This document shows positions 20,151 through 49,429 of a DNA stretch of 64,000 nt, piece after piece. The notes under the pieces are model-generated. The model made no database searches, had not been told where the DNA came from, and worked only from the letters and a program-made list of their open reading frames with translations. Within the stretch, counting starts at the first letter, position 1; every line of letters starts with the position of its first letter. Where the stretch lies: positions 9,176,001 to 9,240,000 of the forward strand of contig JAKZAN010000005.1 of assembly GCA_023053545.1 (NCBI GenBank), given 5' to 3'. This stretch comes from Lepidurus packardi. Its lineage: Eukaryota > Arthropoda > Branchiopoda > Notostraca > Triopsidae. The translations under genes were made by a program, and so were the position numbers.

Positions 20151-20450
20151 TTTGAGTCCTAATCTTTAATGGTTTTAATTATGCTATTTTGATACAATGC
20201 GTGAGAACCTGAGTTTTGTTATGTATATACAAAAATATATGTTGTTTTGAATATTTGCATTTGCTTGCTTTAGATGGTGCCACTTGAAAGTCAAAAACAC
20301 ACAGGACTTGAAAGTAAAACATATGTTCACTTCGTGGGGTTAGTTTTTCAAAGAAATTAAAAATTAAAAGCTTCGCTGCATTTCGACAATCAAAGCTGAA
20401 TACTGAACTTTCAAATCAAATTTGAATCAATACTGAACTTTGCTCGAAAC

Positions 20451-22054
20451 TGGAATGGCTATCATAACCCTTTTCGAACGCTGCAAGCCGCTGCAACTCG
20501 CATAAAAGCGGGTTCAGCCATGTTAGGGGAGGGGCTAGCGATCCGCTGCGAGGGTTGCATGCCGCAGCACACTATATAACGCCGTTGCATTGAACCATTC
20601 TTCCTTCAGTCCTTCACTGTGTTTCGCATGTTAGCTAGCAATTGTAGCGTAGTGCCTTATAGTGTAGTTCTTCTAACCCGGATTAATTATTTAATGTAGT
20701 TCCTCTTAACCTTGGATTAGATTTTTCAGTAAGGTTATTTTTTATTGCATTCTGTGTTTCCCTTTGACTTTTTTCTTGGATTGATTATTTAGTTCTGTTC
20801 TTCTTTAACCCGGATTATTTTTTTTCCTCTTAACCCTGGATTAGATTATTTGACTTTTTTCTTCTAACAGATTAACCCTTTCTCTCTTTACTAATATGAG
20901 TAAATCAAGGGCGCAGTTTTTTAAAAATTGTCTACGCGATCTTGAACGTAGAGCAAATTTGCCTGCGTCGGCCTACGATAGTTCTTCAAGAGCGCCCATA
21001 CTGATTAGTAACGAACATTTTGAGAAGTTTAGGCAGGCGTGTTTTTCAAAGAAAACAGAGTTCGATGCTTACCCTCTCCCGAAGCGTATGGCAATATGGC
21101 AATCTCAGAGTTTTAATATTGACCAAATTGACACAACTGCTTCCAGTACTTTGCCCGAGCGTTTGAGCGAATGTTTAGCTTTGTGCAGCAATGGAGATGG
21201 GAATTGTTTCTACAATTCCGCTTCTTTGTCTTTGTTCGGCAACCAAAGGCATGCCGTTGAGTTGCGCTGCCGAGTTGTGGTCGAATTAGCAACCAATTAT
21301 GAGTTGTACTCCAGGGAGTCGGCAGGATACCTCTCGATGAAACAAATTGGAACCCTAGTCGAGTACTCAGGATTCACTTTCGACCGTGTTAAATTCACGG
21401 GCGTTGACTCAGTGTGCCCTACAGGTATTCCACCGGCGGAAGACTGTTTTAAGTACTATTCCATGGAACACGCCAGGGATCGGGAATATTCGAGCATTAT
21501 TGCATTCCCAGCTTTGGCTAATGTTTGTAAGATAGCCGTGGAGTCAGTTTATCCGAAAGCGGATGGAATCAGAGCATCTCATCAAGCGAATTTTTTAAAC
21601 GAGACGTTTTCACCAAGCGGTGCCGTTTCCTCTGAAACTATTCGAATTTTGTGGACTGGGCTTTTGGCAAACTTCACGAAGAAGGAAAATGGACGTTTAG
21701 TCCCTCCAACATCCTGGAATCCCAATCATTTTGTGCCTGTGATTGAGCGTGCTAGTCAGTCACCCCTCTTTTTGTCAGAGAACATTATATTTGTCATATT
21801 AAATATCCATTCCGTTTTATTTCTGTCAGTGGTCAAAAACCAAGCCCACTACTGAACACATAATATTTATTCTTTTGGTTCTAAGCACCCTAGGGCGTAA
21901 GCCGCGGCAAAGCATATGGAGAAAAATACAGATCACGTGCAACACTGCTGCGTTTTGCTGCTTTTAAGACACCTCCTACAACATGCCTAAACCCGCTTTA
22001 TGCGAGTTGCAGCGGACTAGAAACTGGAAGGAAATTGTCATGCTAGCTTAACGT
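20451..22054 (+). mobile_element. Short MULE derivative (1.6 kb) carrying only the OTU gene
   Basis: Matches both ends of the 6.9-kb element at 31000-37893 but lacks its middle. Left end TGGAATGGCTATCATAACCC and, reverse-complemented, right end ACGTTAAGCTAGCATGAC correspond to the two ends of the long copy. Just inside lie inverted CCGCTGCAACTCGCATAAA sequences (about 20490 and 22016). Flanks are GCTCGAAAC and GCTCGAGCA, a 9-base target-site duplication with six matching positions. Homology to the long copy's coding strand ends near 21780 and resumes near 21794 with the long copy's far end, so about 5.3 kb was lost at one junction. The left end has about 17 extra bases (TTTTCGAACGCTGCAAG) compared with the long copy. 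Confidence 0.88.
20896..21855 (+). CDS. Stand-alone OTU-family cysteine protease (MULE-borne)
   Basis: 319 codons in one exon. Residues 1-296 equal the N-terminus of the 1020-residue protein of the long MULE except for one difference (S273 here, Y there). OTU core: SNGDGNCFYNSASLSLFG with D101 and C104, and WNPNHFVPV with H278, which are the catalytic Asp/Cys/His positions of the family. OTU enzymes cleave ubiquitin or similar conjugates; the substrate here is unknown. After N296 the frame runs through 23 unrelated codons created by the internal deletion, then stops. The full upstream region and start codon of the long copy are kept (20470-20895), including TATATAA at 20573. It can encode a protease without any DNA-binding part. 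Whether it is expressed is not known. Confidence 0.8.
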   Translation: MSKSRAQFFKNCLRDLERRANLPASAYDSSSRAPILISNEHFEKFRQACFSKKTEFDAYPLPKRMAIWQSQSFNIDQIDTTASSTLPERLSECLALCSNGDGNCFYNSASLSLFGNQRHAVELRCRVVVELATNYELYSRESAGYLSMKQIGTLVEYSGFTFDRVKFTGVDSVCPTGIPPAEDCFKYYSMEHARDREYSSIIAFPALANVCKIAVESVYPKADGIRASHQANFLNETFSPSGAVSSETIRILWTGLLANFTKKENGRLVPPTSWNPNHFVPVIERASQSPLFLSENIIFVILNIHSVLFLSVVKNQAHY

Positions 22055-22307
22055 GCTCGAGCATATATAAAAATGATATCTAGTGGATTCCAACGGGGTT
22101 CATAGGATGAGACCATTTTGGTTCGGTTTATGAATGCCTTGCGGCTATCATTCTTTCACTAGAAACATCGGATCTGGAACGAAAAGTGTACGGATAGCTT
22201 ACTCGCAAGGGATTTGAAGAATGTAAACATCCGGTGTTTTTAAACATTTTGATTGTTATTATATTTATAAATGTGGTAGTTACGAATATTAACTGAATTT
22301 TTGAGCC

Positions 22308-30908: not shown

Positions 30909-33110
30909 GATTTTTGATAAATACATTGTTTTTTCCCATGCATTTATCTTCGTCTTTTTCTGTTTGCTTATATCTACGATTTGAGGTGTTCCTGTCGTAA
31001 CGTTAGGCTAACATGACCCTTTCTTCCGCTGCAACTCGCATAAAGCGGGTTTAGAGCGGGTTTAGGCATGTTGTAGGAGGTGTCTTAAAAGCAGCAAAAC
31101 GCAGCAGTGTTGCACGTGATCTGTATTTTTCTCCCCATGCTTTGCCGCGGCTTACGCCCTAGGGTGCTTAGAACCAAAAGAATAAATATTATGTGTTCAG
31201 TAGTGGGCTTGGTTTTTGACCACTGACAGAAATAAAACGGAATGGATATTTAATATGACTAAAATCATGCAGTGAAAGTTGAATGTTACCTTAACAGCCT
31301 CATCCTTTGTTGTTTAGTAACAAGTTTTAACTAAGAAGACCATTGCACGAATTATGCTTAATAAATCCATTAAATAAAAAATAAAAACCTTAAATTAAAA
31401 AAAATAAAGGACGAGAAGTTCGCAACTTTTCTTTGGGAACGTAAGTGATGCTGCTGCTGACTTTTTTCGTTCCATTATTCTTCTTGTAAGACAGCAAGTA
31501 TGACTGCTGGTAAACTTACTTATGGTGTAAAGAATTATTATTATACTTTGACCCATATAATTTTCGGAGCTCTAAAATAGGAAAGGCATTTTTTCGTGAA
31601 CTTGAAACAATCTCAAGAATTGGAAAGCTTAATCGATGGCTAAAATCTAATTCAGGTTCGCAACGAGATGTTTATTGAACTCATGGAGAAGGATTGGGCG
31701 TCTTTTTCACCTTTATTTGGACTTCATTTGGAAAAAAAACTAGAATAAATGAGCCCAGTTTGGATTTGATATGGCCCACCAAAAAGAAGTACAGATGAAA
31801 ACCCAACAGAAGTGAGTAAAATTCTCAAAATATTTACCACTCTGAAATAAAAACTCGAAATGTGGTCCGTTTTCGCCGTTTATTGACACGACAGAGAGAA
31901 TAGACGTAGATTGTTTGCAGAAGTCGGTCAAAAGTCTTCCAAGTATCCTCCACCCCCTATTTTCGCGGTATTGGTATGGGAAGGTCGTGAAGAACGAAAG
32001 AAGCAAAAGTGAAGGACATTTATTTTGATCGCAAGAATTAAAATGAAAAGACAATGAAAGTGTTGGGCTTTTTAGATTATAGTTAAAGGAACTTGTTTTA
32101 CTTGGCTACTTTTACAAGAGCTTGCGTAGATTGCGTGAGCGCTGGCGAAGAATTACATCTTTTGCCTATGCTGATTCCACTTTATATATCCGCAAGAGAT
32201 AATCTCCTATATAGGGTATTGGAGGCTGTTCTACGAAAAGTCTAGGAAGTGCTAGCCAAGTTAAGTCAATAGGCCCTTCTAAGGAATAAGTATAAAGGAA
32301 CACAATAAGAAAGTCAACATAGAAGACAACTCATAAGGGGTCCAAAGAGGGCAACTTAGAATTTCCGATTAGGGAATTCTGGAACCGGTGTTGCTGAAGC
32401 AAATTTTTTTCATAGCTTAAGTTTATGACCAGTTGATTTGGCGTAAGTTATCTTCGTATTAGTTATTACAGTAGCATATATTGTATATAAGTAGTTATCT
32501 TTGTATATAGCTTCTTTATCAATACCGGTTCTTACAATTCTTATTCTTATTTGTATCAGTTCTTATTTATTTGATAGCATTTTTTTAAAACAGTAAACAG
32601 AAAAGACACATAGCCCATCAGTTATGTAGTGTCTTCTTCTATCAACACTATTAAACCGCATGGCAAATTCTTCATATAAGCCAAATTTGGAAGACAAAGT
32701 TTGAGGTAGAAAAGCCTAAAAACAAGTAGTGGGTGCGGGGCAATAGCAAAAGTAAGGAAGATTCTGGAAAAAGCAGAAAAGATTGTGTAGCCTACGTACC
32801 GTGGGAAGAGAAGACAGGAAGGGAGTACACGGTGAGCAGTACTGACTTTTTGCCTAAAAGCCTAAACCCGGAGCGACTAGGCGGCAAAACCTCGAAAAGC
32901 CGAAACCCGGAGCGACTATAGGCAACCACCTAGCAGTCTACAAAGTTGTATTTAGTTTTTGCAAGTAAGGAAAGCCGTTAAAATGATCAGAAAAGATTTT
33001 GCAGACGTTGCTAACCTTCCTGTCAAAAAATCCATCTCGAGTTATGAGTTTTTTGTTTAAGCGGACCTATAGAGCGTGGGAAGGTAAGACAAGAGCAGTT
33101 CGAGCAGCCC

Positions 33111-33708
33111 TATATAAGTTGCCAACTTTAGAAGCTCCTTATTCAGTCCAAATCCAGCAAGGAAGAAAGTAAGCACTTTTTAAGCATTGGTTGAATTTAT
33201 ATTTAAGTTCTTGCGGTTTTTAGTGTCTTTTTTTCATTCTTTTTGTCAATAATTTGTCGCTTCATTTCGCTATTATTTTTTATATGTTTTAAACGTAATC
33301 ATCACAAACCTTGCATATTTCGAAAGCTAAGAAAAAAACTCGTAAAAGAAAATAAAAGAAACTTTCTTGTTTCTTTTGTTTACTATCTAGATGGAAACCA
33401 CCGTTACGGCTGCTGCCGTCGCCCCGCCTGCTGCCGTCGCCCCCACGCCTGCTGCTGTCGCCCCTACGCCTGCTGCCGCCCCCACGCCGGCCGCCAGCGC
33501 CATCCCAGGCCTGTCTAAGCGCGGAGGGCGGGGCAGATGGAGGGGAGGACATAGGGGAAGGAACCCCTATGCTCTCCCCTCCATCTGCCCCGCCCTCCTT
33601 AATTGTATATTTCTGCAATGTTCTAAAAAAATTCAAATTTCAAAACACAACACAATGAAATGGAATTCACAACAATTCGAAGTGCTTGCGGGTCCCACTC
33701 AGCGATGA
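33111..33708 (+). CDS. Possible small spliced Ala/Pro-rich gene inside the MULE
   Basis: On the strand opposite to the MULE ORF, CCTATATAAG at 33109-33118 looks like a TATA box. It is followed by a short candidate exon to 33168 (GAAAGAAA|GTAAGC-type donor), a T-rich intron and an acceptor TATCTAG ending at 33390. An ATG starts at once at 33391 and opens 105 codons: METTVTAAAVAPPAAVAPTP, further PTPAA repeats, a basic GGRGRWRGGHRGR stretch, then the palindrome at 33523-33598. The codons downstream look non-coding. It may be a nested element or a spurious ORF in repeated DNA. Nothing in it is recognised. Confidence 0.3.
33523..33598. repeat. 76-bp near-perfect palindrome, GC-rich
   Basis: Arms of 35 bases beginning GGAGGGCGGGGCAGATGG and ending CCATCTGCCCCGCCCTCC are fully complementary except for two adjacent positions (GA against CT). 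The loop is AAGGAA. GC content is far above the surrounding AT-rich DNA. As RNA it would form a very stable stem on either strand. Confidence 0.9.
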
Positions 33709-33860
33709 CACGGTTACCGAGTGTACTGATATTAATATTCCAATACATCTCAGTCGTGTCACGGTGTGTGGTACCCCTTTTTACCTTCACACCCATAAAC
33801 TCAATTCACAACCATACATCGAATTCACAATCATAAATACAATTCAGCTTGAAAACTTAA

Positions 33861-34035
33861 ATCACAACTTTGCTGAATATAATTGCTGATGTATAACTCG
33901 CAGATTATTTGGAAACACGAATCACAACTTTGCTGCATATAGCTGCGTTCTGCGAGTAAGACTATCAGACTTCGTGGAAACTAAAAATCACAACTTTGCT
34001 GCACATAGCTGCACCCTGCGAGTAAAACTCCCAAA
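33861..34035. repeat. Three tandem units of about 60-66 bp
   Basis: The phrase ATCACAACTTTGCTG begins at 33861, 33921 and 33987. Each unit continues with ATATAGCTGC-like and CTGCGAGTAA-like segments and with TGGAAAC before the next unit. Divergence is moderate. Located inside the long MULE, in its unexplained part. Confidence 0.85.
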
Positions 34036-34117
34036 CTACCTTTGACTACCTTGACACTTATTGACATGAATACGGCAATAAAATGCGAAGTCAATCAAAA
34101 AATTGCTATTGCTAATT

Positions 34118-34148
34118 AGTATTGCTTTGCGAAATGCAAAGCAATACT
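34118..34148. repeat. Perfect 13-bp hairpin
   Basis: AGTATTGCTTTGC, loop GAAAT, then GCAAAGCAATACT. Lies inside the MULE between the tandem units and the end of the 1020-codon ORF. On the minus strand it is about 240 bases downstream of the ORF stop, so it could sit in the transcript's 3' UTR. Function unknown. Confidence 0.85.
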
Positions 34149-34249
34149 ACATTATCCCTTTCATTAACACAGACAAGGCATATTGTTGCGGATGACCTTT
34201 TCTAGACTTAGCCTTCTTTAGATTCTTAGTGTTATTCTTAGGGGCCTTC

Positions 34250-34375
34250 ATTACATTCTTAGTTGCATTCTTAGTTAGTGGAAGACTCTTAAGAGAAGGT
34301 CGAGGTCAGAGGACCAAGGTTGACTTAATTGCATTCTTAGTTAGTCGAGGTCAGAGGACCAAGGTTGAAGGAAGC
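34250..34375. repeat. Direct repeat of about 40 bp
   Basis: TTGCATTCTTAGTTAGT occurs twice (about 34264 and 34330). GTCGAGGTCAGAGGACCAAG also occurs twice (about 34299 and 34346), each followed by GTTGA. It borders the 3' end of the MULE ORF. Confidence 0.8.
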
Positions 34376-34383
34376 ATCTTTGT

Positions 34384-37300
34384 TCATGGAAGTGGTATAA
34401 AAAGATACGCCAATGTACAGACGATAAAGTTGGGTTTTAGACCAAGCAAAGAAATACAGCATTGAAAAAAAACCATCCGTGACAATATGTACTGAATATC
34501 ATGTAAGTCGTCCATTGGTATACTATTTAGGCATAAATCTGGCTGCTGCTTGTGAGCGCAAGTTATATGAAACCAAGACTTACACACGCTGCAACAAACC
34601 CAAGTAATATCATCATCAAGGTCGTCATCAGGATCGTTTCGTTTGCTGCAACCAGCGCAGAGTTGCGGTACGATGTCATCTAAAACGTCGGATGGCTGAT
34701 CGCTAAATCCATGTCTTAGAAAGACATTCGATGGTTTGTTATTGTACGGCTTGCGCGTCCGATGAAATTCTCTTTGAGGTATAAATTTGGCATTAGAACG
34801 GACGTCAGTTAATTTTTCGAACGTCTCTTTTACTATCTTTTCCTCTGGTGGTCTACTGTTAACAAGTCTTGCTGTAGCCACAAGAATCTCCAAATCACGG
34901 ATGGCTCCAGGATCAGTTGTTAACGTATTAAGAATCTCGCGCAAGTCTCTACGAATGTTTGCCAAGGAAACGGCTGGCGGTTTAGTTGTTCTAGCTAACT
35001 TTTCTAGCTGGGCATTTTCAGCGATCTGTTGCTCTACTAATGCCGCTCCTATGACACGTGAATGACGCAGATTTTTCTGAGCGAGGTTATGTAAATCTTT
35101 CATGGTAACGGCCTGGTTCCTAGAAAGTACATCACTGATGATGGGTTCTGCCATACAACTCTCAATAATTTTGGGTTTAGGGATTCCGATCAAAAGCTTA
35201 TGTTGTAATTCTTCTGTTCCTTCATGAAGGCGACAACGACCTGGTAAACGATCATGGCCAACATGAGTTAGGCAACATGTAACCTCAATTCTTTTTGTAA
35301 GGTGCCATACTTGCGCAATTATAAAGCTGGTACAATGGACACCCGTACAACAAGACTTTAGTCGCTTCAGGGCACGTTTGCCTGTACCCTGATTTTTATA
35401 CGAGAAAGAGCGATTGCACACGTAGGTTGTTGTACTGTAACTAGTGCACTTCCGAGCTCCCCTTCGATTACGAAAACTAACACAAGCATTTCTTTCTATC
35501 TCTGTTTTCCACGACATGAAACTGTTCTCGTTACAAAAACTGAATTCCTCTAGCTGGCAGGACAAACCATGTTTATCGTGAACATGCTCAACATAAGACG
35601 TCAGGCGTGACAGCTTCTCTTCACAACCAGGGTGATAGCAAATTATTCTTGGTAGCTGTTCGAGCTTTCTCTTTTTTCTAGCAACGTTACAGAATTCGTC
35701 GTCAGAATCGATGACTAAAGTACTGCAATTAATGGTATCAGCAGACACGCTACCACTAACACTGCTCTGAAACGCAGAATTTATTACTGGGTCGTAAGTC
35801 GGCTCTGACTGATCTAACTCGACTAAGATGTGCAATTGCTGCTTGTCAACTGAAATCAAGTTTAAGGAATGCTCCTTGTCTACCGGGCCAATTAAGGGGA
35901 TCTCCTCAGAAGTACGTGTTTCTTCTAATTCAAGAGAATGAACTAATTCTACATGACGGGTGAGCATGTCTGCTCTAGAAAACTGCAAACTACACTGTGG
36001 GCACTCAAAACTAGACTTGCTACATCTTTTCTTTTCTATATGCAACTTCAAATTGCTCTTCCTTGTGAAAACGGTTTTACAGTCTTCGCAAATAAAGCCC
36101 TTAGATCCTTGCTCGGCAAGCAGAATCTGACTAGAGCTTTGTTTTCCTAGCTGAAACTTGCAGCGCTTGTTTTTAATGTGATTCTTCAAATTTTGATTTG
36201 TTTTGAACGTAGTTTCACATCCCTTGCACGAAAATTTTGAAGGCCCTTGTTTGGTATGAGATACTACTCTGCCTGACTTCACACCAGGTGTTTTACCATT
36301 CGATGAAATGGCTTTAGTGACATTTTCTTCGTGCTCTCCATTATTTGCGGCAAAAGCTTTTGGGACAGACAATTCAAAATCTGAGCTTGAATTTTCATGC
36401 GAGAACGACTCGCGAAGCCCTGAACTAACAGCGCTACTACTATTTTGCATAGAGCTGCAAAAAGAAACTGCAACAGGTGTTATCACATTTGCAGTTTCAA
36501 TTGGATGACTGGGAATAACTGACGCAGTTTCTACCACATCAAGAACCGGAAGAGTGCAGTTCTCTGACAAAAAGAGGGGTGACTGACTAGCACGCTCAAT
36601 CACAGGCACAAAATGATTGGGATTCCAGTATGTTGGAGGGACTAAACGTCCATTTTCCTTCTTCGTGAAGTTTGCCAAAAGCCCAGTCCACAAAATTCGA
36701 ATAGTTTCAGAGGAAACGGCACCGCTTGGTGAAAACGTCTCGTTTAAAAAATTCGCTTGATGAGATGCTCTGATTCCATCCGCTTTCGGATAAACTGACT
36801 CCACGGCTATCTTACAAACATTAGCCAAAGCTGGGAATGCAATAATGCTCGAATATTCCCGATCCCTGGCGTGTTCCATGGAATAGTACTTAAAACAGTC
36901 TTCCGCCGGTGGAATACCTGTAGGGCACACTGAGTCAACGCCCGTGAATTTAACACGGTCGAAAGTGAATCCTGAGTACTCGACTAGGGTTCCAATTTGT
37001 TTCATCGAGAGGTATCCTGCCGACTCCCTGGAGTACAACTCATAATTGGTTGCTAATTCGACCACAACTCGGCAGCGCAACTCAACGGCATGCCTTTGGT
37101 TGCCGAACAAAGACAAAGAAGCGGAATTGTAGAAACAATTCCCATCTCCATTGCTGCACAAAGCTAAACATTCGCTCAAACGCTCGGGCAAAGTACTGGA
37201 AGCAGTTGTGTCAATTTGGTCAATATTAAAACTCTGAGATTGCCATATTGCCATACGCTTCGGGAGAGGGTAAGCATCGAACTCTGTTTTCTTTGAAAAA

Positions 37301-37446
37301 CACGCCTGCCTAAACTTCTCAAAATGTTCGTTACTAATCAGTATGGGCGCTCTTGAAGAACTATCGTAGGCCGACGCAGGCAAATTTGCTCTACGTTCAA
37401 GATCGCGTAGACAATTTTTAAAAAACTGCGCCCTTGATTTACTCAT
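34384..37446 (-). CDS. MULE protein: OTU protease, zinc fingers, PHD-like finger (1020 aa)
   Basis: Single-exon ORF of 1020 residues. OTU cysteine protease domain at about 95-285 (D101, C104, H278). A Ser-rich linker follows. Three C2HC/C2H2 fingers lie at about 405-429, 451-475 and 480-503, with a fourth Cys/His cluster at about 602-626. Residues about 650-735 (Cys-rich, then THVGH) and the following RLHEGTEELQHKLL and TMKDLHNLAQKNL resemble the WRKY/GCM-type zinc region that precedes the catalytic core in arthropod MULE transposases. A PHD-like finger at about 930-963 reads CAGCSKR, then WVCCSVCKSWFHITCA. I see no DDE triad or SWIM motif; the segment between LHNL and the PHD finger is short and helical. 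The last about 40 residues run into repeat DNA. The domain content is clear; the role in transposition is inference. Confidence 0.8.
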   Translation of the reverse strand: MSKSRAQFFKNCLRDLERRANLPASAYDSSSRAPILISNEHFEKFRQACFSKKTEFDAYPLPKRMAIWQSQSFNIDQIDTTASSTLPERLSECLALCSNGDGNCFYNSASLSLFGNQRHAVELRCRVVVELATNYELYSRESAGYLSMKQIGTLVEYSGFTFDRVKFTGVDSVCPTGIPPAEDCFKYYSMEHARDREYSSIIAFPALANVCKIAVESVYPKADGIRASHQANFLNETFSPSGAVSSETIRILWTGLLANFTKKENGRLVPPTYWNPNHFVPVIERASQSPLFLSENCTLPVLDVVETASVIPSHPIETANVITPVAVSFCSSMQNSSSAVSSGLRESFSHENSSSDFELSVPKAFAANNGEHEENVTKAISSNGKTPGVKSGRVVSHTKQGPSKFSCKGCETTFKTNQNLKNHIKNKRCKFQLGKQSSSQILLAEQGSKGFICEDCKTVFTRKSNLKLHIEKKRCSKSSFECPQCSLQFSRADMLTRHVELVHSLELEETRTSEEIPLIGPVDKEHSLNLISVDKQQLHILVELDQSEPTYDPVINSAFQSSVSGSVSADTINCSTLVIDSDDEFCNVARKKRKLEQLPRIICYHPGCEEKLSRLTSYVEHVHDKHGLSCQLEEFSFCNENSFMSWKTEIERNACVSFRNRRGARKCTSYSTTTYVCNRSFSYKNQGTGKRALKRLKSCCTGVHCTSFIIAQVWHLTKRIEVTCCLTHVGHDRLPGRCRLHEGTEELQHKLLIGIPKPKIIESCMAEPIISDVLSRNQAVTMKDLHNLAQKNLRHSRVIGAALVEQQIAENAQLEKLARTTKPPAVSLANIRRDLREILNTLTTDPGAIRDLEILVATARLVNSRPPEEKIVKETFEKLTDVRSNAKFIPQREFHRTRKPYNNKPSNVFLRHGFSDQPSDVLDDIVPQLCAGCSKRNDPDDDLDDDITWVCCSVCKSWFHITCAHKQQPDLCLNSIPMDDLHDIQYILSRMVFFQCCISLLGLKPNFIVCTLAYLFIPLP

Positions 37447-37902
37447 ATTAGTAAAGAGAGAAAGGGTTAATCTGTTAGAAGAAAAAAGTCAAATAATCTA
37501 ATCCAGGGTTAAGAGGAAAAAAAATAATCCGGGTTAAAGAAGAACAGAACTAAATAATCAATCCAAGAAAAAAGTCAAAGGGAAACACAGAATGCAATAA
37601 AAAATAACCTTACTGAAAAATCTAATCCAAGGTTAAGAGGAACTACATTAAATAATTAATCCGGGTTAGAAGAACTACACTATAAGGAACTACACTATAA
37701 GGCACTACGCTACAATTTAATACTAGCTAACATGCGAAACACAGTGAAGGACTGAAGGATGAATGGTTCAATGCAACGGCCTTATATAGTGTGCTGCGGC
37801 ATGCAACCCTCGCAGCGGATCGCTAGCCCCTCCCCTAACATGGCTGAACCCGCTTTTATGCGAGTTGCAGCGGGGGTTGTGATAGCCCTTCCACCTGTCG
37901 TA

Positions 37903-39378: not shown

Positions 39379-42291
39379 TTAGACTAGATGAAAATTAGGG
39401 CTTTCGCACATCTTTGATACGGTCTCGCCGGAAATTTCGAAGCTCACCAGGAACCGCAAAGAAACAGGATTCTACAAGGAAGAAACAAAGAAATAGGTAA
39501 CAGACAAAACCTCAAATTTTTCAATACTAAAATGCTTTTTTAAGGGCTAAAAATAGCCGATACAATTGGCAAAAAAAAATCACATTTCCAGTACTTACCT
39601 CAGAGGGACAGGCGATTAGTAGTATTTGTGTAACAGCCGGCGGAGGGAGGAATGGCTTGAATGCAGGAAGACTGGAGGACGTTATAGGTAAAAACTTGAA
39701 CCGACAAAAGTCAGGCACTAGAACTTGGATTGCGAGATTCGAAAGGGGATGTTCATAGCGACTAACAGCAGACACTACAATAGTGGCTACGTCGGATCGT
39801 GGCCGGTCGCACGCTAGGTGCAGTGTAACGGATAAGCCATTTGGGTTATCTAGCAAAACAACTGCTGGGCGTGAATCTGGAGTCACATCCTCAATAGAAA
39901 GTGACAAATCTCCTAGAGGCGCAGGTTCTCCCAAATTTTGTCCATTGCAAATATCGTTCAACAACGCTTCATCGCTTGTGAGTTCCAGATTTTCCATACT
40001 TCCTTGTAGGAAATCCAAGTTTTCTTCCGTGCGAATAAGTTCAGCGTCAGCACCATTCGATGCCGACATACTGACCAACAAAGTTGAGGGATCATCGACG
40101 GTGCAGTCTACAAGCTTGTAGGATGCCGAAGGTGAATCAGATACTGGGATAGATGCTTTCCTTGCGCTCCACTGGTTCATTGGTAGTTTATCGTACACCC
40201 TAGAAATACGAATTAGCTGCAAAAGAAACATTCGGATTCTTACGGTGTCACTTAGTTTATACGTACTTTGGTTCGCTTTCATAGGAGGGTAAATATTCCC
40301 TAAGCATGGACTCGCTTAAGCTGTTCAATTCTTGCAAACCTGCCGACTTGTGATGCAACGGTCCTTTAAATCCCACGTTACCTAGTAAAAGTGTCATTAG
40401 AGATTCCTAAGGTCACAAAAGATCATGCGGTTTAGGATCAAAGATACCAAATTGATCTTAAGGGTTAACGAAAATTATGAGGTTTGATATCGAAGTTAGT
40501 ATACAAAACTTGGTTAACTGTAGCTTTACCAGAAACAGATTTCATTCCTGGCGCAGGCTGAGTTTGCACCTTAATCGGAGGTAAGAGGTTACTAGGTGGT
40601 TTCAAGTTGATTCCTTCAAACTCTACAAAACACCATTGAAAAGATTAAGGAAATTTCTCTTGCAAAAAGAGCACACCTAGTAATAAGAGAGGTTCGTCTA
40701 GTGTCCGTTGGTCCACAAGCGACTCGCGATTAACTGGGATGCTAACACTTTGATCCAAAAGCAAATCACAAGAAGACATGGCTTGTCGCTTCTGTCTGAC
40801 TTGGTTGTCCGTAACTATAGTTGTATACCGCGCCAAAACCAAGTCTAGCTCATCACAGGCTTTCAAAATTTCCCCTACAATAATCTTACTATCTTTCCGT
40901 TGTTAAAATGTGTCAAATTATACCAAGTGCTTCGTCCACATCATCCGTTTCTGAGGCTAAATTTAATAAACGCGCCTTTAGCTTCCTGCAATTATTGTTA
41001 ACTTCTTTGACAAGTTCGAAATCTTCTTGACTAGACGCGCTAGTTTCCATATTATCCATCATTTCGGCAAATAACTTGATGTTATTCTCCACCGTCTGCA
41101 ACTCCATTCGTCGTAGCCTGTTTTTTTCCATTCTTAACTCGTCCTCCTTAACCATAGACTTAATCAGTCGGTTGGCGGCTTGGAGGTCTTCGGGATTTTT
41201 GCTCTTTAAAAGCTGCTCCAATAATTGGCTCTTTCCGCTATCCGTGAAAGTACTCGGCACGGGTTTTGTAGTAACTTCAGTCCGTGACGAACTACTGACC
41301 GGCGCATCCGTGTTCTGTGTGCAATCTGGGTCTTTTAGAACGATATTCTGCTTCTTCAACATGTCATACGCTTCCTTAATTTTCGGTTCGCCGTGTAGCT
41401 CGCGAGCCCACGTGTATAATAACTCGACAACTTTCTTTTTTATGGATACAGGGGTGCGGTTTCCAAGATATTTTGGGCTAACAAGTTTGATCATTTCATT
41501 CAGGAAGCGAAACTTTCCTATTTCATTCCGGAAAGGTTGTCCACAGCTTTTCATGCATTCCTCCAACAACTAAGGAAAGGATAGATTATTGATATTATAT
41601 AAATATGTAGGCATGTTTGATAGATAATACTTATACACATAATCTTAATAATTACTATCGTTTAAAATTTACTCACTTTTAAGGCATTCAGTGCTTCGAT
41701 TTCCAAAGGCGAATGAATTCGGTAGGCTAGCAATCTGGCTGCCAGCTGAATACCTTCAAACTCGGTTTTCGCTTTTTCGCAGAACTGACGGACCCAAGCA
41801 TTTTGATCTTCTGAGATGGGACTCGTTGCCTTCACTAGATATTTTTTTAGGGTAAACAACAGCAATACTTATTAGGATGTTCTGTATGATACCGTTCATG
41901 AATATATTCTTTTAAAAAAATTAAAGCTACTGTAGTCCTTCTTTGACTTTCTATAATTAGTAACAAAATTGGCAAATTTAATTCTAGTTTTTTTTCTGAA
42001 TCTCTGAAGTATTATGATACACCCTAATACGAGTTCAGAACATTTTACAGAGATAAATATTCAAAGACTTAAAATATTTTTTCAATATTCTTTTTTGTTA
42101 GGACAGTTAACATCATCATTATTTCCTATGTTATTCCAGACATCGTAACAACGGAGGCGGGTATATATTGTTAATGTTATGCTTTTGAAACTCTTTATTA
42201 TTGCTAGGATCAGGTTATTATTATTTTATTCGGAAAGGCAGGTACACTTCTTACCCATTAGTATTTCAAGGCTATCTTCGGTGGGATTCAT
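39379..42291 (-). CDS. GGA1: GGA, Arf-dependent clathrin adaptor of the Golgi
   Basis: Monomeric adaptor that sorts acidic-dileucine cargo from the trans-Golgi to endosomes. Exons (minus): 42291-42255, 41834-41677, 41569-40924, 40874-40677, 40622-40530, 40381-40267, 40199-39599, 39471-39379; 646 residues against 639 in human GGA1. VHS domain: WVRQFCEKAKTEFEG, LLAYRIHSPLEIEALNAL, NEIGKFRFLNEMIKLVSPKY. GAT domain: LLKSKNPEDLQAANRLIKSM and LLNLASETDDVDEAL. Hinge: acidic cluster with NLELTSDEALLNDIC. C-terminal GAE ear: GLSVTLHLACDRP through FLPPPAVTQILLIACP and SLRFLVSFEISGE. Animals other than vertebrates usually have one GGA, so the number in the symbol is nominal. The splice at 40530/40381 was chosen because it is the one that keeps phase. 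Confidence 0.9.
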
Positions 42292-46845: not shown

Positions 46846-49429
46846 CAGTGGTCTTCAACCTTTTTCGGCCACCGCCCACTTTTGTCAAATTTTCCATGAC
46901 CCAAACCTGCCAGCGCCCACCAGATTTTTGTTATAATTTCATAAATATAAGCTTTTACCAGTATGTTAAACACGATAAAACTTTTTTCTATATATCACTG
47001 GAACTAGTTTATTTGGTATTATTTTGCACAACGTTTCTGATTATTTTTAAAAAATTTTACACAAACGACAAATTACTACTTAGTGAGAACCCTGACACTG
47101 ATGTTTGGAGACTAGTTCCTTTATGTCCGGCTTGAGGTTCGTAAGGAAAAGACGGAGATCTCCTCTTTCAACAATATCCAGGCGGTTTCTTTGTTTCGTT
47201 AACAAGTTCACAACGGCGCTGAAGCCTGTCTCGACTAAATATGAAGTCGGGAATGCCAAAAGCGGCAACTCCATCTCTTTCCATAAAGTCGGATATCGCA
47301 GTGTAATTTCTTTTCTCTGCCAAAGCTGCGCATATCCTCCCTGATCAAAGTACAACCGAGCTTCTTGGTCATGCTGTAGTTCCAAAACCTCCTCTTGATG
47401 AGCAACTTCAACTTCATTTATGTTACAAACGAAAGGGTTTATCATCCATGGGGCTACTTTCATTTCAAGCAGATCTCGAAAGCGATTCTGCATATCCACT
47501 TTTAATGCAGTGAGGTGTTTTCCATATTTATCAATATCGGCCGTCTCAAGTTCTGCAGAAATGGAGGACAGCTCAGGAAATTGATAGAATTCTTTCCTCA
47601 AGATATTTTGTCGGAACATGTCTAGCTTCCCAATAAAAGTCGCGATTGATCGTTTGCAGTCTATGAGTGTGACCAACTTCCCTTGAAGCTGCAAACTAAC
47701 ATCATTAAATTTCCGGTAAAGAGCGGCCAAATAAAAGGCATCTTTCTTCGCCTTTTCCAAATCATCACAATAGTTAATTTCACCGGTTTCAGTAAAAAAT
47801 TCCAGTACAGTTGTGTACAAGGCAGCAAAGCGAGTAAGGCAGTTACCCTTAGAAAGCCAGCGCACCTCTGTGTGCAGAATTAGCCGCTCAAATTCTTCGT
47901 CATTTGCGTCGCAGAGCTGACGAAATATTCTATCTTTCTTTGCATTTGCTTTAATTCGATTAATAGCAGAGACAATGACGTTCAAAGAAGCGTGAAGTGC
48001 GGGGCTAAGTTGTTTGGCCACAAGGTGCTGTCTATGAGCCACGCAATGAATTGTAAACATGGTTGGCACTTCGTGTTTCAAAAAGGCGAGTAACCCTTTG
48101 TATCGCCCAACCATGGAAGGGGCTCCGTCAGTTGCGCATGCAATAACATTCTTCATTGTAATGTAATTTTTATCAAAAAACAGTTTCAACGCTGCAAAGA
48201 CTGATTCACCTTTGGTATCAGTGACAAGCTTTTCTGCGAAAAGCATTTCTTCCTGCAAAGTGCAGTCGTCCTCAAAATACCTCACGTATGCCATTAATAA
48301 TGAAGAGTTGTCGGACAAAGTTGTCTCGTCAAGCTGGATAGAAAATTTTCTAGATTTAAGTTTCGCGGTTAGTTGGCTTTTAACATCGATTGCCATTTCA
48401 TCAATGCGCCTTTGCATGGAGGCAGCACTCAGAGGTATAACGTTCAAAACATCAGTAGGATTCTGATGCATAACCGTACTGATGACCTCTAGCAGTGCCG
48501 GCTTGATAAGCTTTTCGCCAATAGTGTGAGGTTTTCCACACTTACTAATAAGCTCGGCAATCTTGTACGAAGCGACTAGTCCGTCTTCGGCCATCGAGTT
48601 TTTCCTTTCGAACAGGGCAGTTACTGTTCTACGGTTTTGAAATTTATCCCGCAGATCTTTAAAAAACTCCAGAGGTTTTTCAATCATCAGTGGGTGCTTT
48701 GCCTGCAAATGCTCTTTTAGGCGTGACGGCTTCATCGCTTCGTTAGAGAATGTCTTTTCGCACAAGAGGCACATTGGTATACGTTTGTCATTGGCTGACT
48801 CAATAAAGCCATATGCCAAATAAGCTTGAGAATATTGACGACAGCTCTTCTTAGGTGGCATTTTTCAATCAGACATACAATTGTCATGCGTGGGAATGCG
48901 ATTCCTGAAGTTCAGAAAGTTGGAAATTTCAGTAAATAACATTGTTTACTAACCGCTTCAAAGAAAACTTTTAAGACATGTAACTTACGAAAGATATCTT
49001 CACGGAATAGTGTTCATGTAAAAATTTTGTAGATGAAAAGAATAAACGGAAATAACGGTAGCGAACAAAATCACATGTGGACAAAAAGGCAGGACTTCAC
49101 CGACTACTCTTGTTGGGGAGCTCCTTCTCTGTGCAACTTGACGTTCGACTTCGCAACGTTAAAAAAAAATACGAAAGGGGGAAAAGTGAAGAAAAGACGA
49201 TCGTAGGGAGGCAAGTTAGTACTTCGCATTTCGCTCCTTGAGAAACCCTCGTGGAAATTACCCCTATTGCAGACAACTTTTCCCCTTTTTCCAGTCCTAT
49301 CTTTCAGTGGACATGAAGTACCCAGAGAAAGCCTGAGCGCCCCCCTCACCGCCCACTCCTGGCTCACCGCCCACTGAAAAGCTCAAAACGCCCACAAGTG
49401 GGCGATATCGCCCAGGTTGAAGACCGCTG
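46846..49429 (-). mobile_element. hAT transposon, Buster-type, complete (2.6 kb)
   Basis: Left end CAGTGGTCTTCAACCT (46846-46861) and right end AGGTTGAAGACCGCTG (49414-49429) are inverted repeats with one mismatch in 16. Both sides carry an identical 8-bp duplication, GGCTAGAT (46838-46845 and 49430-49437). Eight-base duplications define hAT elements, and the central TA fits the nnnTAnnn preference described for the Buster branch. GGGCG/CGCCC motifs are repeated in the subterminal regions. It has one intact transposase ORF on the minus strand. The perfect duplication and intact ORF point to recent insertion. Confidence 0.93.
47080..48861 (-). CDS. hAT transposase (ZBED5/SCAND3-like), intact
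   Basis: 593 residues in one exon. N-terminal BED-type zinc finger: MCLLCEKTFSNEAMKPSRL with HLQAKH (about residues 30-55). Catalytic core: QLDETTLSDNSSLLMAYVRY (first Asp), ACATDGAPSMVGRYKGLL (second Asp), FTIHCVAHRQHLVAK, and EVRWLSKGNCLTRF. C-terminal hAT dimerisation region: FPTSYLVETGFSAVVNLLTK, RNRLD, then LRLFLTNLKPDI. This layout matches the Buster-derived ZBED5/SCAND3 group of animals. Because it sits inside TIRs with a target-site duplication, it is a transposon gene, not a domesticated host gene. No frameshift or stop is present. Confidence 0.92.
   Translation of the reverse strand: MPPKKSCRQYSQAYLAYGFIESANDKRIPMCLLCEKTFSNEAMKPSRLKEHLQAKHPLMIEKPLEFFKDLRDKFQNRRTVTALFERKNSMAEDGLVASYKIAELISKCGKPHTIGEKLIKPALLEVISTVMHQNPTDVLNVIPLSAASMQRRIDEMAIDVKSQLTAKLKSRKFSIQLDETTLSDNSSLLMAYVRYFEDDCTLQEEMLFAEKLVTDTKGESVFAALKLFFDKNYITMKNVIACATDGAPSMVGRYKGLLAFLKHEVPTMFTIHCVAHRQHLVAKQLSPALHASLNVIVSAINRIKANAKKDRIFRQLCDANDEEFERLILHTEVRWLSKGNCLTRFAALYTTVLEFFTETGEINYCDDLEKAKKDAFYLAALYRKFNDVSLQLQGKLVTLIDCKRSIATFIGKLDMFRQNILRKEFYQFPELSSISAELETADIDKYGKHLTALKVDMQNRFRDLLEMKVAPWMINPFVCNINEVEVAHQEEVLELQHDQEARLYFDQGGYAQLWQRKEITLRYPTLWKEMELPLLAFPTSYLVETGFSAVVNLLTKQRNRLDIVERGDLRLFLTNLKPDIKELVSKHQCQGSH

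Follow-up and report, generated by a model that had tools for sequence, protein, structure and literature searches.

Does a Mutator-like element (MULE) that encodes only an OTU-like protein persist on account of that protein, or is its reading frame simply what a deletion happened to spare? The question is raised by a 1,604-bp internal-deletion derivative of a MULE, with both end coordinates confirmed, at positions 20451-22054 of the window, i.e. the whole 64,000-nucleotide stretch of Lepidurus packardi DNA analysed here (G000:C4:9176001-9240000). An earlier sequence-only reading had seen in it a possible transposon satellite that supplies a free, deubiquitinase-like protein in trans. Searches of the assembly (108.6 Mb, 344 contigs) lead to a different answer: with a probability of about 0.77, the short copy is a young, single-copy and passive internal-deletion derivative of an OTU-fused MULE.

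The anatomy of the short copy (Table 1) bears out what the sequence-only reading had described. Its ends, its ATG at 20896 and a junction after 21783 are confirmed. The description as a MULE deletion derivative encoding only an OTU-like protein is supported, and the 319-codon frame carries D101, C104 and H278 where they had been placed. Residues 1-296 correspond to the OTU-like region of the family, while residues 297-319 form a new tail derived from the 3′ non-coding region. Terminal inverted repeats are present (20488-20532 against 21972-22015 inverted, 87%), with no inverted match reported for the outermost 37 bp. The comparison with a longer copy in the same window was equally accurate: over the N-terminal 296 residues the two differ at a single site, 273 S/Y (one nucleotide in 888), and the loss of ∼5.3 kb holds as the difference in size between them (6,894 - 1,604 = 5,290 bp). 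At position 273 most aligned rows carry Ser (23 of 32, with Y in two), so that within family A it is the long copy that has changed, to Tyr.

Table 1. Features of the short and long MULE copies in the window (positions are those of the window)
Feature	Position	Strand	Basis
Left flank GCTCGAAAC, imperfect target-site duplication	20442..20450	.	6/9 identical to 22055-22063
Left terminus TGGAATGGCTATCATAACCC and inverted-repeat segment 20488-20532	20451..20532	+	alignment, terminus search
5′ upstream region kept	20533..20895	+	alignment to L013
ORF, 319 aa, ATG at 20896	20896..21855	+	ORF reading
D101-G-N-C104 motif	21196..21207	+	32-row alignment
H278 of the W-x-P-x-H-F-V-P motif	21727..21729	+	32/32 rows; invariant in 5 family representatives
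Deletion junction after 21783	21783..21792	+	alignment; one full genome match among candidates scored
3′ end kept, including inverted-repeat segment 21972-22015	21784..22054	+	alignments including L013
Right flank GCTCGAGCA, imperfect target-site duplication	22055..22063	.	flank comparison
Long-copy perfect 9-bp duplication TACGACAGG	30991-30999, 37894-37902		flank comparison
Long copy, 6,894 bp, without transposase core	31000..37893	-	alignment, profile search
Long-copy ORF, 1,020 aa: OTU-like region, C2H2 fingers, PHD-like pattern (by eye)	34384..37446	-	profile search
Junction marking the in-frame loss of the DDE core, AGAAAAAT/CTGCG	35070..35071	-	common to L029

Elsewhere in the window, the minus strand holds exons of a GGA-type adaptor gene (39527-41554; VHS, GAT and adaptin C-terminal domains) and an ORF of 593 aa (47080-48861) in which a BED-type zinc finger is weakly recognised and which may be another transposon-derived protein. 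One of 12 contig-end stretches read ends in (TTAGG)n, the usual arthropod telomere repeat.

The family to which the short copy belongs is recognisable from its full-length relatives, in which a single ORF comprises an N-terminal OTU-like region, C2H2 fingers, a MULE core and an end that looks PHD-like by eye. The clearest cases are L048 (C5:10844300-10848900, a duplicate of L040), with an ORF of 1,453 aa, a PF10551 MULE match at E 1.6e-9 and three C2H2 stretches, and L047 (G000 C2:1024650-1029500), with PF10551 at E 8.9e-9. The N-terminus of L048 (as L040) is 70% identical to the OTU region in the window; at its other end no Pfam match is obtained, the PHD-like cysteine pattern there being read by eye. 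Perfect target duplications of 9 or 10 bp, within the 8-11 bp typical of MULEs, flank eight of the 13 insertions with both ends in hand, when five read copies from a tandem array are taken as one; none is found at L015, L016, L026 and L032, and the left flank of L026 is common to L027. These duplications, together with PF10551, identify the family, which on such sequence grounds is a member of the MULE superfamily.

At least 250 of the 319 query residues are covered at 63 places (43 in family A, 10 in family B and 10 more distant), so the OTU region is a family trait rather than something acquired by the short copy. No internal stop interrupts 60 of these places, the three with a stop being array copies (frameshifts lie outside that count). 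Capture of a host OTU gene, as in a Pack-MULE, was rejected, given that the OTU region is the native N-terminus of the transposase ORF in L047, L048 and L022. No confirmed relatives were found in viral_contigs and genome_contigs. Between L047 (family A) and L048 (family B), the DNA of the DDE core is ∼97-100% identical and that of the OTU part ∼75-89%; judging from this one pair, the two families appear to have exchanged segments. In two open frames, of 1190 aa (C1:4559093-4562449) and 1079 aa (C2:5671630-5674692, minus strand), the DDE core appears to be present twice, once at ∼99% and once at ∼48-49% identity to that of L047.

How far the N-terminal region deserves the name of OTU protease depends on the level considered. 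The sequence-only reading had called it a complete OTU catalytic domain. At the level of motifs this stands, the catalytic Cys and His lying in the expected motifs with C104 and H278 conserved in 32/32 rows; at the level of profiles it does not, the short ORF scoring 15.5 bits for Pfam OTU against a cut-off of 23.3. Weak matches to the same profile occur in four of five family representatives (best E 0.0031). D101 had been proposed as a catalytic residue and occupies the position claimed, but it is variable, being D in 27 of 32 rows and N in five; a guess from the alignment makes D79 rather than D101 the suspected catalytic acid. Alignment with A20-type OTU deubiquitinases brings the GDGNC and HFVPL motifs of the family into register with theirs at E 0.6-0.7, below significance. 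A profile search of solved structures returned no significant relative, and single-sequence fold prediction reached a mean pLDDT of 38.

The nearest relative of the short copy is not its neighbour in the window. The long copy was rejected as its parent, the left 37 bp and two 5′ indels being different. Among 20 loci the closest is L013, a 9,214-bp element with a perfect 9-bp duplication on a contig other than that of the window, whose identity to the short copy is 99.8% in the first 1,333 bp and 97.4% in the last 272. Relative to L013, ∼7.6 kb are missing, from just past the OTU region into the 3′ non-coding end. Of the 9 nt after 21783, six match the 3′ region of the parent, beyond which the alignment runs on; these nucleotides are either filler or diverged sequence. 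The 3′ parts of L013 and of the long copy include ∼3-4.7 kb devoid of any ORF of at least 150 aa (L013 4430-9100; window 31270-34384), and in the long copy a near-perfect G+C-rich hairpin is seen by eye at ∼33522-33598.

Internal deletions in cut-and-paste elements usually originate from interrupted repair after excision, and the present one probably arose in the same way. Its ORF would have survived because the OTU region lies upstream of the breakpoint and the copy has not existed long enough to decay. Given a working promoter, it could yield a free OTU-like protein; nothing indicates that the copy is retained for that. The OTU-like region is the N-terminal module of the full-length transposase. 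By analogy with the OTU and Ulp1 domains of other transposases, it may act on ubiquitin-type modifications during transposition or, alternatively, may protect the transposase from turnover.

The most serious challenge to this passive reading comes from derivatives larger than the OTU-only copy. Profile searches find no MULE domain in the short ORF and no MULE core in the long-copy ORF, which jumps in frame from residue 844 to about residue 1236 of the L048 frame; lacking this core, the long copy is not autonomous. Family A was read across the ORF at 24 loci. Five of these are array copies, and one, L016, continues into the 3′ region. Another six are free of DDE-core deletions in the ORF (L014, L022, L024, L028, L047 and L038; the reading of L038 stops at the limit of the sequence analysed, and L022 lacks its own end). 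In the remaining twelve, the core is wholly or partly deleted within the ORF, and eight distinct junctions can be told apart, one out of frame (L021) and seven in frame (L013; L015/L031/L032; L025; L026/L027; the long copy/L029; L030; L037). Against the one third expected, seven of eight corresponds to a binomial P of 0.0026, in a test chosen after seeing the data. In family B, only L048 was read across the ORF, and the other open-frame lengths look compatible. Left breakpoints of several distinct DDE-core deletions (L016, L021, L037, L029 and window 35071) lie at the same GCTCAGAAAAA stretch.

Such figures can be read as the trace of selected products: transposase-less proteins with OTU, zinc-finger and C-terminal parts, that of the long copy included, would bind element ends without cutting them and serve as regulators, KP-like repressors or helper subunits, and the OTU-only copy would be a by-product of the deletion process that generates them. 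The in-frame excess speaks for this, but it comprises eight junctions only, and segment exchange between copies could reduce the number of independent events. Two of the in-frame junctions are present at several sites, as would be expected if copies had moved once the core was gone: that of the long copy recurs in L029, at another site with its own, different and perfect duplication, and that of L015, L031 and L032 is accompanied by a duplication in L031 alone. In families A and B together, an OTU region of at least 250 residues is found at 53 places (38 counting the array once), against 14 places with a DDE core spanning 300 or more of 350 residues (identity 89% or higher). On the other side, many copies are frameshifted elsewhere in the ORF (e.g. 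L013, L029, L031 and L037), and the OTU region evolves near neutrality within family A. Selection on these proteins is thus a possibility that we would not favour. The fuller version, in which an OTU-fused MULE repeatedly sheds its DDE core in frame, the resulting proteins being selected as regulators or helpers in trans and the OTU-only copies representing the extreme of reduction, is judged unlikely. If any derivatives are selected, it would be the transposase-less OTU/zinc-finger proteins and not the OTU-only copy, and these in-frame DDE-less derivatives are the more promising lead. Were this true, the family would be converting its own transposase into a deubiquitinase-bearing DNA-binding regulator. 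Should the surplus of in-frame junctions in DDE-less copies prove robust, it would be evidence at the sequence level that such derivatives work as proteins.

The satellite proposed at the outset fares worse. It holds that the short copy is kept because its free deubiquitinase-like protein acts in trans, either aiding transposition or blocking ubiquitin-dependent host control. An intact frame behind its own 5′ region and ATG, and the invariance of C104, W274, H278 and F279 in 32/32 rows, speak for such a role. The sequence-only reading had said beforehand that a single copy genome-wide would point to a random deletion, and a single match to the whole junction is what the genome search returned (best 40 of 111 candidates scored). 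An amplified non-autonomous family built on this copy was rejected on the same result.

A second, independent OTU-only form also speaks for the satellite. Allowing up to two mismatches, 43 left termini are found in the genome, and the right-end pattern is found 37 times; among elements below 5 kb found by both end patterns (a right end such as that of L026, which departs from its pattern at more than three positions, is missed), there are two kinds, namely the window copy and a 2,504-bp form. The latter is present at 16 places (12 on C20, two on C21 and two on C6), at 15 of which the right-end pattern follows at a distance of 2.3 kb, and encodes a 386-aa ORF in the five copies read (L017-L020 and L023). 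These five have identical flanks and an identical 10-bp duplication, and therefore represent one insertion multiplied with its surroundings in a tandem array; for these five of the 16, a mobile OTU-only family was rejected. Moreover, a TGA lies inside the OTU frame at three of the 16 places and the frame is shortened at one. The form sits in a repeated stretch with ∼92-bp subrepeats downstream (L017-L020 and L023; C20, C21 and C6), and ribosomal DNA was rejected as the identity of the array, 50 kb giving no Rfam match at gathering score. Neither the window short form nor the 2,504-bp form shows any sign of having moved to new sites.

Codon evolution provides no further help to the satellite. 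The alignment used comprises 32 rows (24 of family A including the five array copies, three of B and five of C or D), and omits L016, which is frameshifted, and L048, which duplicates L040. Between families A and B, dN/dS in the OTU region is 0.48-0.50 at dS 0.42-0.43 (three pairs). Within family A, 35 nonsynonymous and 11 synonymous distinct changes give a pN/pS of 0.90 (20 rows, four array copies being dropped), which is near neutral. On these codon counts, constraint on the OTU region is visible between families A and B and not among present copies, which indicates that the region has been constrained in propagating lineages. The OTU codons of the short copy are those of the family consensus, with 0 changes in 290 codons. 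The copy is therefore young and its intact frame carries no information on selection, for which dN/dS has no power at zero changes. With one junction, consensus codons and near-neutral variation in family A, action in trans is left unsupported and is held to be very improbable.

The insertion history of the short copy is not clean, as this otherwise young copy has an imperfect duplication and clustered 3′ differences. Six of nine duplication bases agree (GCTCGAaac / GCTCGAgca), leaving a mismatch of three bases, and two further two-base differences from L013 lie near the 3′ end; clustering in two or three bases would fit clustered errors or multi-base mutations alike. An empty insertion site was sought with both 300-bp flanks and none was found. 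A sequence or assembly artefact, in which a mis-joined pair of element ends simulates a short copy, could account for both anomalies but is the least credible explanation of all, since each 300-bp flank matches this site alone in the genome and agreement of the first six of nine duplication bases has a chance probability of ∼0.0002 at that register.

Passive origin of the short copy is thus favoured by the junction found once (among the best 40 of 111 candidates), the identity to L013, the consensus codons, the pN/pS of 0.90 and the presence of OTU region and MULE core in one ORF. Counted against it are the imperfect duplication, the clustered 3′ differences, the A-B dN/dS of 0.48-0.50 and the retention of the OTU frame in two of two short forms with both ends, an argument that is weak because n = 2 and the OTU region lies near the 5′ end.

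Among known systems, the family shares with Mutator-like elements PF10551 in its full-length relatives and perfect 9-10 bp duplications, and differs in that its ORF also encodes C2H2 fingers and, at the N-terminus, an OTU-like region. In the texts of two MULE surveys (PMC6446971, PMC13359780) OTU does not appear once as a word, and no OTU-bearing MULE is among the literature matches listed; within these sources, an OTU-fused MULE family is unusual. Rehavkus elements, described from arthropod and annelid hosts, have a PHD finger in the transposase and a 9-bp duplication (PMC6446971). The 9-bp duplication and PHD are shared, the family's PHD-like pattern being seen by eye only and giving no Pfam match, while the OTU and C2H2 modules set the family apart. 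Rehavkus elements have a minisatellite ahead of the 3′ end; in the 3′ part of L013, the one copy inspected, there are only short low-copy repeats.

KP and other internally deleted P elements have lost catalytic parts, are mobilised in trans and in some cases encode repressors, the KP-type repressors keeping the DNA-binding domain without the catalytic part (PMC12393704). On that account, their closer parallel is found in the in-frame DDE-less MULE ORFs, including that of the long copy, which fits. The OTU-only short copy differs in being without a recognised DNA-binding domain, its ORF matching no zinc-finger family at E 0.1 in a profile search.

A further source reports OTU domains in the proteins of Ginger1 elements and Helitrons, and Ulp1 domains in those of Mutators, suggests a role of the ubiquitin pathway in transposition, and presents ubiquitin- and SUMO-protease domains as recurring in unrelated transposases with their role still open (PMC2836005). 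The family differs from Ginger1 and Helitrons in its transposase, the OTU domain of Ginger1 is C-terminal, and the Mutators named carry Ulp1 rather than OTU. What is common to all of them is a ubiquitin/SUMO-protease-like domain fused to a transposase, and in a young family that combines protease-like, DNA-binding and DDE modules in various ways, the natural deletion copies allow the role of the protease-like module to be put to the test.
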